Source: Microbacterium sp. cx-55 (GTDB lineage Bacteria > Actinomycetota > Actinomycetes > Actinomycetales > Microbacteriaceae). Taken from it: a DNA stretch of 64,000 bases. The notes beneath the pieces were generated by a model, which worked only from the letters and a program-made list of their open reading frames with translations, ran no database searches and was not told the origin of the DNA. Numbering within the stretch: position 1 is the stretch's first letter; the number at the start of each line of letters is the position of its first letter. The translations under genes were made by a program, and so were the position numbers. The DNA lies in NCBI RefSeq assembly GCF_021117345.1, contig NZ_CP088261.1, positions 1,116,001 through 1,180,000 of the forward strand, read 5' to 3'. Positions 46,953-47,140 of the stretch are shown piece after piece.

Positions 46953-46958
46953 TAGGGT
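46953..46958 (+). promoter_or_regulatory. -10 element of the arginine leader ORF
   Basis: TAGGGT, 6 nt before ATG 46965; the same geometry as the leaderless genes of the window. Confidence 0.55.
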
Positions 46959-46964
46959 CGCGAC

Positions 46965-47048
46965 ATGCCTTCGGCTGCCTTTCCGTGCTCGATGACCCTC
47001 TCGGGTCTCGCCGGTGCGCGCCGACGTCTGGGCGACCGCCGACTCTAG
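46965..47048 (+). CDS. Putative arginine leader peptide (27 codons)
   Basis: A short ORF whose C-terminal end reads ARRRLGDRRL: five Arg codons (CGC CGA CGT ... CGC CGA) among the last nine. It starts 6 nt after a TAGGGT -10 and ends 92 nt before argC. Two possible stems follow (47048-47053 with 47081-47086 and further pairs; 47100-47106 with 47109-47115). Arg-rich leader ORFs before arginine genes suggest ribosome stalling when charged tRNA-Arg is scarce. CGN-rich short frames also arise by chance in GC-rich DNA, so this needs comparative support. Confidence 0.5.
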   Translation: MPSAAFPCSMTLSGLAGARRRLGDRRL

Positions 47049-47127
47049 GCGACCCGGCACGCACTTCGGAGCGCGCGGGTGTCGCCGTCCCCGCCCCGGG
47101 GCGCACTCGTGCGCCGAGCCCAGACTC

Positions 47128-47133
47128 TAAGGT
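47128..47133 (+). promoter_or_regulatory. -10 element of argC (leaderless)
   Basis: TAAGGT, 7 nt before ATG 47141. A second, internal promoter relative to the leader ORF. Confidence 0.5.
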
Positions 47134-47140
47134 GGAATGC

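Follow-up and report, generated by a model that had tools for sequence, protein, structure and literature searches.

Textbooks present arginine synthesis as controlled by a repressor, and the arg operon of Microbacterium sp. cx-55 raises the question of what might sense arginine in a genome where the repressor is not found. A sequence-only reading of the window, by which we mean the whole 64,000-nucleotide stretch analysed here, had proposed that ribosome stalling at the Arg codons of a short open reading frame (ORF) may control argCJBDF, while noting that arginine operons are classically under ArgR. The latter remark turns out to count in favour of attenuation, since no ArgR was found in the family: with Pfam PF02863, the C-terminal domain of ArgR, there is no match in any of 59 genomes of the genus or 249 of the family Microbacteriaceae, Microbacterium sp. 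cx-55 included, and the control search matches C. glutamicum and 7 others. In the order, 268 of 297 genomes match, none of them within the family; among the 29 without a match, all of the 20 listed belong to the family, as do three of the other nine, one (G537) belongs to another family and five were not placed, so that a match may be missing from a few genomes beyond the family too.

The leader features claimed for the window are all present (Table 1). Five of the last nine codons of the ORF specify Arg and 92 nt separate it from the argC ATG (47141), downstream of which the seven genes from argC to argH follow one another with successive 4-base overlaps, with the starts as set here. The operon includes, in a genome with no argR match, a gene for a HGSNAT_cat/DUF418 membrane protein. 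Between the divergent ATPase gene and the leader promoter lies an imperfect inverted repeat (46814–46902), whose core, GCAACTCCTCCAGA, is found in 15 copies in the genome at ≤1 mismatch (both local arms counted; reversed control 0); it is a dispersed palindromic repeat, some copies of which stand in spaced series.

Table 1. Features of the arg locus of Microbacterium sp. cx-55, in window coordinates.
Feature	Position	Strand	Remarks
AAA_21 ATPase gene	45639–46769	−	Divergent, upstream of leader; leader lies between it and argC
-35-like TTGCGC, leader promoter	46929–46934	+	Candidate; 18 nt before -10
-10-like TAGGGT (TANNNT)	46953–46958	+	6 nt before leader ATG
Leader ORF, 27 codons, MPSAAFPCSMTLSGLAGARRRLGDRRL	46965–47048	+	Stop TAG 47046–47048
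First Arg run, CGC CGA CGT (RRR)	47019–47027	+	Within leader ORF
Final Arg pair, CGC CGA	47037–47042	+	Ends 5 nt before hairpin arm
Hairpin	47048–47086	+	Predicted; base stem GGCGAC (47048–47053) / GTCGCC (47081–47086)
Tail, GTCCCCGCCC	47087–47096	+	Genus motif GYCYCCGGYC; no U-run
Extra perfect hairpin, GGCGCACTCGTGCGCC	47100–47115	+	Before argC; not universal in genus
Shine-Dalgarno-like AAGG for argC, TAAGGTGG	47128–47135	+	Also TANNNT-readable (TAAGGT, 47128–47133)
argC	47141–48187	+	PF01118, PF22698, PF02774
argJ	48184–49341	+	PF01960
argB	49338–50240	+	PF00696, operon position
argD	50237–51496	+	PF00202, operon position; start codon chosen in analysis
argF	51493–52416	+	PF00185, PF02729
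HGSNAT_cat/DUF418 membrane protein	52413–53549	+	Between argF and argH
argH	53546–54976	+	PF00206, PF14698; start codon chosen in analysis

A conserved reading frame upstream of argC

Arg-rich ends are common by themselves, with at least five Arg among the last nine residues in 17 of 256 window ORFs of 20–60 aa, and it is through its conservation, not through this end, that the leader stands above chance. Among those 17 ORFs, it is the only one with a TANNNT 5–7 nt before its start. A sigma-70 two-hexamer scan of 46700–47300 returned no promoter-like or terminator-like site and did not report the -35-like TTGCGC; TTTGCG is nevertheless in the consensus of 30 aligned genus loci at that site.

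For the genus, we collected the region upstream of argC from 110 of the 146 argC-matching genomes (149 searched), taking the best-scoring 30 first, followed by 80 more whose upstream sequence was long enough. Among 80 named argC relatives, Microbacterium accounts for nearly all. When an ORF was required to have a TANNNT 4–8 nt before its start and at least three Arg in its last 12 residues, 108 of the 110 loci carried one before argC, compared with a mean of 2.55 and a maximum of 6 in 20 rounds of dinucleotide shuffling and 17 of 110 on the reverse strand. In 108 of 110 loci, a TANNNT precedes the start of the leader by 4–8 nt; the leader is probably leaderless. One of the two loci missed (L106) has the element, by eye, with TAG changed to TGG; the other (L045), a draft of 77% completeness, is the sole genus genome without a leader. 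This draft retains TTAAGGTGGAACC before argC.

In the family, the same script found such ORFs in 30 of 60 loci (shuffles: mean 1.5, maximum 4; reverse strand 2) from 55 of 85 genera, a sample chosen by known argC position that favours better-scoring relatives. Among them is one atypical locus, L151, with its leader 234 nt from argC. Six further leaders (L141, L155, L174, L192, L195, L198) were accepted by eye, giving 36 leader-bearing and 24 leader-lacking loci. As the family shows no ArgR either, the leader is not indispensable, and in the genomes lacking it something else, or nothing, controls arg. A leader model, R1, matches 83 of 249 family genomes under strict filters, in 87 places, of which 56 lie just before argC, 12 elsewhere and 19 where the argC position is not known. 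Across the order it recovers 19 family genomes with a best E of 1.7e-4 or better; weak matches in 13 genomes of other families (E 5e-4 to 0.0096) were treated as noise. No convincing second copy was found elsewhere in the genome, where the next best match has an E of 0.32, and argG, which lies outside the operon and has a TAGGAT-type start, shows no such leader by eye or by model. In L286, a separately located argG has a TAGGAT start and is preceded by repeats resembling GAGATGAGGACTT.

Relatives keep the frame, as the proposal demanded. From start to last Arg codon it is kept in all 105 testable genus loci (4 without a start site by rule and 1 without an anchor were left out), over 17 distances ranging from 33 to 111 nt, and in all 21 testable family loci (22 without an anchor and 17 without a site were left out). 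The leader ORF is therefore real and strongly conserved. Were its product a functional small protein encoded beside argC, with the hairpin described below a separate element, the fairly conserved genus N-terminus MPSAA would find an explanation; we consider this most improbable, given that the N-terminus differs between genera, that the length to the last Arg codon varies in frame as above and that the Arg codons hold their position relative to the RNA hairpin.

Arginine codons and the hairpin

Different genera have in common an Arg run farther upstream, a CGA that precedes the hairpin by 5 nt, and the hairpin itself. Of 109 genus leaders analysed, 108 have at least two consecutive Arg codons ahead of the final pair, and the first run ends 14–20 nt before the hairpin in 94 of 108, a spacing that resembles that of trp. 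In 100 of 109 genus loci, as in Microbacterium sp. cx-55, the leader stop codon and the hairpin share one base, and in the remaining leaders the stop lies 10–28 nt past the first base of the hairpin; a terminating ribosome would thus cover the 5' arm. These counts cover leaders whose frame extends as far as the CGA codon or beyond, as the script requires. Among 34 family loci, a count which still includes the false positive L144, where the apparent leader is the end of pheT, the overlap is found in 18, with the stop again 10–28 nt beyond the first hairpin base in the others, and a separate upstream run is lacking in three (L144, L167, L194).

At L144, the 3' end of pheT just before argC has CGA-TTC-GGG-GCGAC, matching GTCGCC downstream, and so resembles a leader end with its hairpin. 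By motif, a pheT end occurs ≤400 nt upstream of argC in 7 of 24 leader-lacking and 6 of 36 leader-bearing family loci. A descent of the leader end (R-L/I-S-A-T) from the PheT C-terminus (R-F-G-A-T) was considered, and the similarity is too short to claim it.

The choice among Arg codons is biased. The last one is CGA in 106 of 108 anchored genus rows, the other two being misanchored, while CGA makes up 38 of the 308 Arg codons (12%) in nine window genes. CGG is avoided, with 24 of 679 Arg codons in genus leaders vs 79 of 308 in the nine genes, and accounts for 17 of 262 in family leaders. Because CGU, CGC and CGA usually share one tRNA-Arg(ICG), CGG being read by another, the leader seems tuned to one isoacceptor. 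The sequence-only reading had named a conserved Arg run with changing third bases among relatives as support for its proposal; this holds for the first run, whereas the last CGC CGA pair hardly changes. The synonymous bias against CGG also points to decoding and away from nascent-peptide arrest, in which the peptide would sense free arginine inside the ribosome and not the charging of tRNA-Arg. Such peptides are known for arginine, the fungal arginine attenuator peptide and TnaC being models of arrest, and the Arg-rich C-terminus does adjoin the stop codon; but the last Arg may be followed by L, I, V, F, R, P, S, G or T, the stop position also varies and the N-termini differ between genera, while Arg placement and hairpin persist, which makes this reading very unlikely.

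The sequence-only reading had also noted hairpin-capable sequence between leader and argC, and indeed 47047–47087 folds with −24.9 kcal/mol (z −2.7; matched by 1 of 200 shuffles). The leader taken together with the hairpin is unremarkable (z −1.1, the best fold having other pairs), as is the stretch from hairpin to argC (z −0.25). Comparison across loci is more telling. Partner swaps among 98 genus loci (12 of 110 were omitted, 2 without an anchor and 10 with doubtful anchors or arms) covered all ten pairings of five elements, namely first Arg run, final pair, 5' arm, 3' arm and tail; only 5' arm by 3' arm stood out (Z −9.1), the nine other pairings lying between −2.3 and +2.9; the inner stem covaries as well (Z −5.3; 0 of 200 swaps as good, 62 unique arms). 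The first six bases of the hairpin are paired in 106 of 109 genus loci (shuffled control 35%), failing in L043, L077 and the misanchored L107, and in 32 of 33 family loci folded (shuffled control 33%; exception L141), where folding started after the anchor and 3 of the 36 leader-bearing loci, which have no anchor, were left out. An earlier stem search in the family had found a stem directly behind the CGA in 21 of 36 leader-bearing loci, absent or doubtful in 15. No Rfam covariance model, whether of a T-box, a riboswitch or another family, matched 46500–47600 at E 1 or better.

Downstream of the hairpin, genus tails are 44% C and 16% T, and no second structure able to terminate in an off state was found among the tested pairings and tails. 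In 70 of 98 genus loci, against 1.5 expected when tails are shuffled, the tail contains GCCG-N2-5-CGGY, which could fold into a 4-bp mini hairpin overlapping the 3' arm. As an alternative helix it was rejected, since 3' arm by tail scores Z −0.5 and it is absent in Microbacterium sp. cx-55.

The argC start and a putative attenuation mechanism

For argC, the sequence-only reading had assigned a leaderless -10 of its own at 47128, with the consequence that the leader would control only readthrough transcripts. TAAGGT is there, but it is better read as the Shine-Dalgarno site of argC on the leader transcript: AAGG-type sites occur in 35 of 36 leader-bearing vs 4 of 24 leader-lacking family loci, TANNNT in 29 of 36 vs 19 of 24 (Fisher p 5e-11 and 1.0, related loci not being independent). 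As the six by-eye leaders were judged with the argC start visible, we recounted with these as leader-lacking, which gave 29 of 30 vs 10 of 30 for Shine-Dalgarno sites and 25 of 30 vs 23 of 30 for TANNNT. The conserved AAGG thus tracks the presence of the leader and TANNNT does not, so that both the promoter and the restriction to readthrough are doubtful, and the simplest reading is that the leader transcript serves for the translation of argC. In 19 of the 24 leader-lacking loci (e.g., L147, L149, L158, L181, L190), argC has a TANNNT-type start and no Shine-Dalgarno site.

The alternative that argC is driven mainly by a leaderless promoter at TAAGGT, with the leader a minor second input, has in its favour a TANNNT 5–8 nt before the argC start, found in all 110 genus loci and in 29 of the 36 family loci that bear a leader; of the genus starts, 108 of 110 fit both readings and 2 only TANNNT. 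We regard this alternative as improbable, since leader-bearing family loci retain AAGG-type sites, seven of them without TANNNT, since TANNNT without a Shine-Dalgarno site is what 19 of the 24 leader-lacking loci have, and since no -35-like conservation is visible by eye upstream of TAAGGT in 30 aligned genus loci. The hairpin is never less than 36 nt from argC in 97 genus loci (36–41 nt in 47), and we infer from its being kept clear of the argC ribosome site that transcription, rather than translation, would be controlled. Of seven leader regions tested against the Shine-Dalgarno region in 97 loci, six have Z between −1.6 and +1.9, and the inner loop gives a weak signal (Z −3.2) among related sequences.

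On these grounds, the leader is probably an attenuator in which the ribosome senses arginine, employed in the absence of ArgR; the original proposal is partly supported, with the conserved frame and the covarying hairpin in its favour. A leaderless-type promoter would start the transcript at the leader ATG, and a ribosome would translate the short ORF, in which the Arg codons closely precede a hairpin beginning on the stop codon. When charged tRNA-Arg is scarce, the ribosome would pause within the first Arg run or on the leading codon of the final pair, leaving the 5' arm free, and the hairpin would form; when arginine is plentiful, it would reach the last Arg codon and the stop, cover the 5' arm and prevent the hairpin. 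The same transcript would serve for the translation of argC from its own Shine-Dalgarno site. A formed hairpin would then correspond to expression, with termination in the off state perhaps by Rho.

To model masking, the bases that a ribosome would cover were blocked and the base stem was folded in 97 genus loci. With the A site at codon −5, which was taken to represent the first Arg run, the stem forms in all 97 loci; moving the A site to the leading codon of the final pair still gives the stem in 92 of 97. By construction, four of its six pairs are covered at the CGA and all six at the stop. The switch would therefore lie within the final Arg pair. Because most Arg stalls would free the hairpin and a ribosome at the stop would block it, as in trp and orf34-speF, we prefer the sign in which the formed hairpin means on, by a modest preference over its reverse. 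Against this explanation of the leader stand the sigma-70 scan, empty of promoter and terminator sites, the folds without a ribosome, which partly differ across the whole leader (base stem probability >0.5 in 70 of 97 genus loci, 0.28 in Microbacterium sp. cx-55), and the lack of a visible off-state terminator. A stall on the conserved CGA by the hairpin would moreover block the hairpin, opposite in sign to one in the first run.

The same sensor might work with the opposite sign if the hairpin were a terminator without a U-run and a ribosome stalled at the final CGA covered its 5' arm, letting RNA polymerase pass. As the only conserved structure found between leader and argC, the hairpin is the simplest candidate terminator, and the CGA keeps a constant distance of 5 nt from the arm, at which a ribosome stalled on it would mask the four pairs mentioned. 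This is a serious but unlikely alternative: the tail has no U-run, a stall in the first Arg run frees the hairpin (97 of 97), so that the operon would shut off in starvation, and a terminating ribosome, overlapping the arm, would oppose termination when arginine is plentiful.

Returning to the formed hairpin as the on state, a broader scenario, to which we give somewhat less than an even chance, would be that the family lost ArgR and that in many genera (35 of 55 sampled) a leaderless single-hairpin attenuator took over, with charging of tRNA-Arg(ICG) setting an antitermination hairpin and factor-dependent termination as the default. The family appears to have dropped the repressor, and many members carry what would be a translation-sensing RNA switch at the same operon; with family genera both with and without the leader, the swap from repressor to RNA is testable across genera. 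If true, the element would be a simple attenuator, leaderless and with a single hairpin that no U-run follows. It could serve to study premature transcription termination in actinobacteria and might offer a means of engineering strains for arginine production.

Relation to known leader peptides

Leaderless polycysteine short ORFs of mycobacteria, in work from 2020 by Canestrari, reportedly attenuate an operon; judging by its title, the likeness to the argC leader lies in actinobacterial origin, leaderless start and cognate codons, for cysteine there and for arginine here. A comparative survey of actinobacterial attenuators found leader peptides before amino-acid operons and, in the available part of the source, reports that conserved RNA structures were not observed upstream of arginine operons (PMC1262725). 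The LEU element described in the same part pairs leucine codons with a Shine-Dalgarno box (PMC1262725), whereas for the argC leader RR codons by Shine-Dalgarno region gives Z −1.6. Among the matches listed in the open-access literature, we found no earlier report of an arginine leader before an actinobacterial argC.

With attenuators of the trp/his type (PMC1183508) and M. tuberculosis ilvB1 (PMC13236596), as the accessible portions of these sources describe them, the argC leader has in common that cognate codons in a run precede an RNA arm, that a ribosome reaching the stop would mask this arm, and that the choice of regulatory codons is biased; such bias has been described, and selective charging verified for Arg isoacceptors, in the available part of one of them (PMC1183508). 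The leader ORF with cognate codons is thus present, but unlike in classical attenuators, where two exclusive helices and a U-run terminator are expected, we found one covarying helix, no alternative terminator helix and no U-run.

The Salmonella orf34-speF leader, to the extent that the available text of its description goes, differs in being enterobacterial, in controlling ornithine decarboxylase, in having a long 5' UTR with an ORF that starts 32 nt in, and in acting through RNase G, Rho and access to the Shine-Dalgarno site (PMC6386406). Here it is argC, not speF, that follows. In that same text, a hairpin just after the stop forms when the ribosome pauses at low arginine and is disrupted once a ribosome occupies the stop (PMC6386406), and the argC leader, like orf34/SpeFL, is a short ORF with consecutive Arg codons and a hairpin at its stop.
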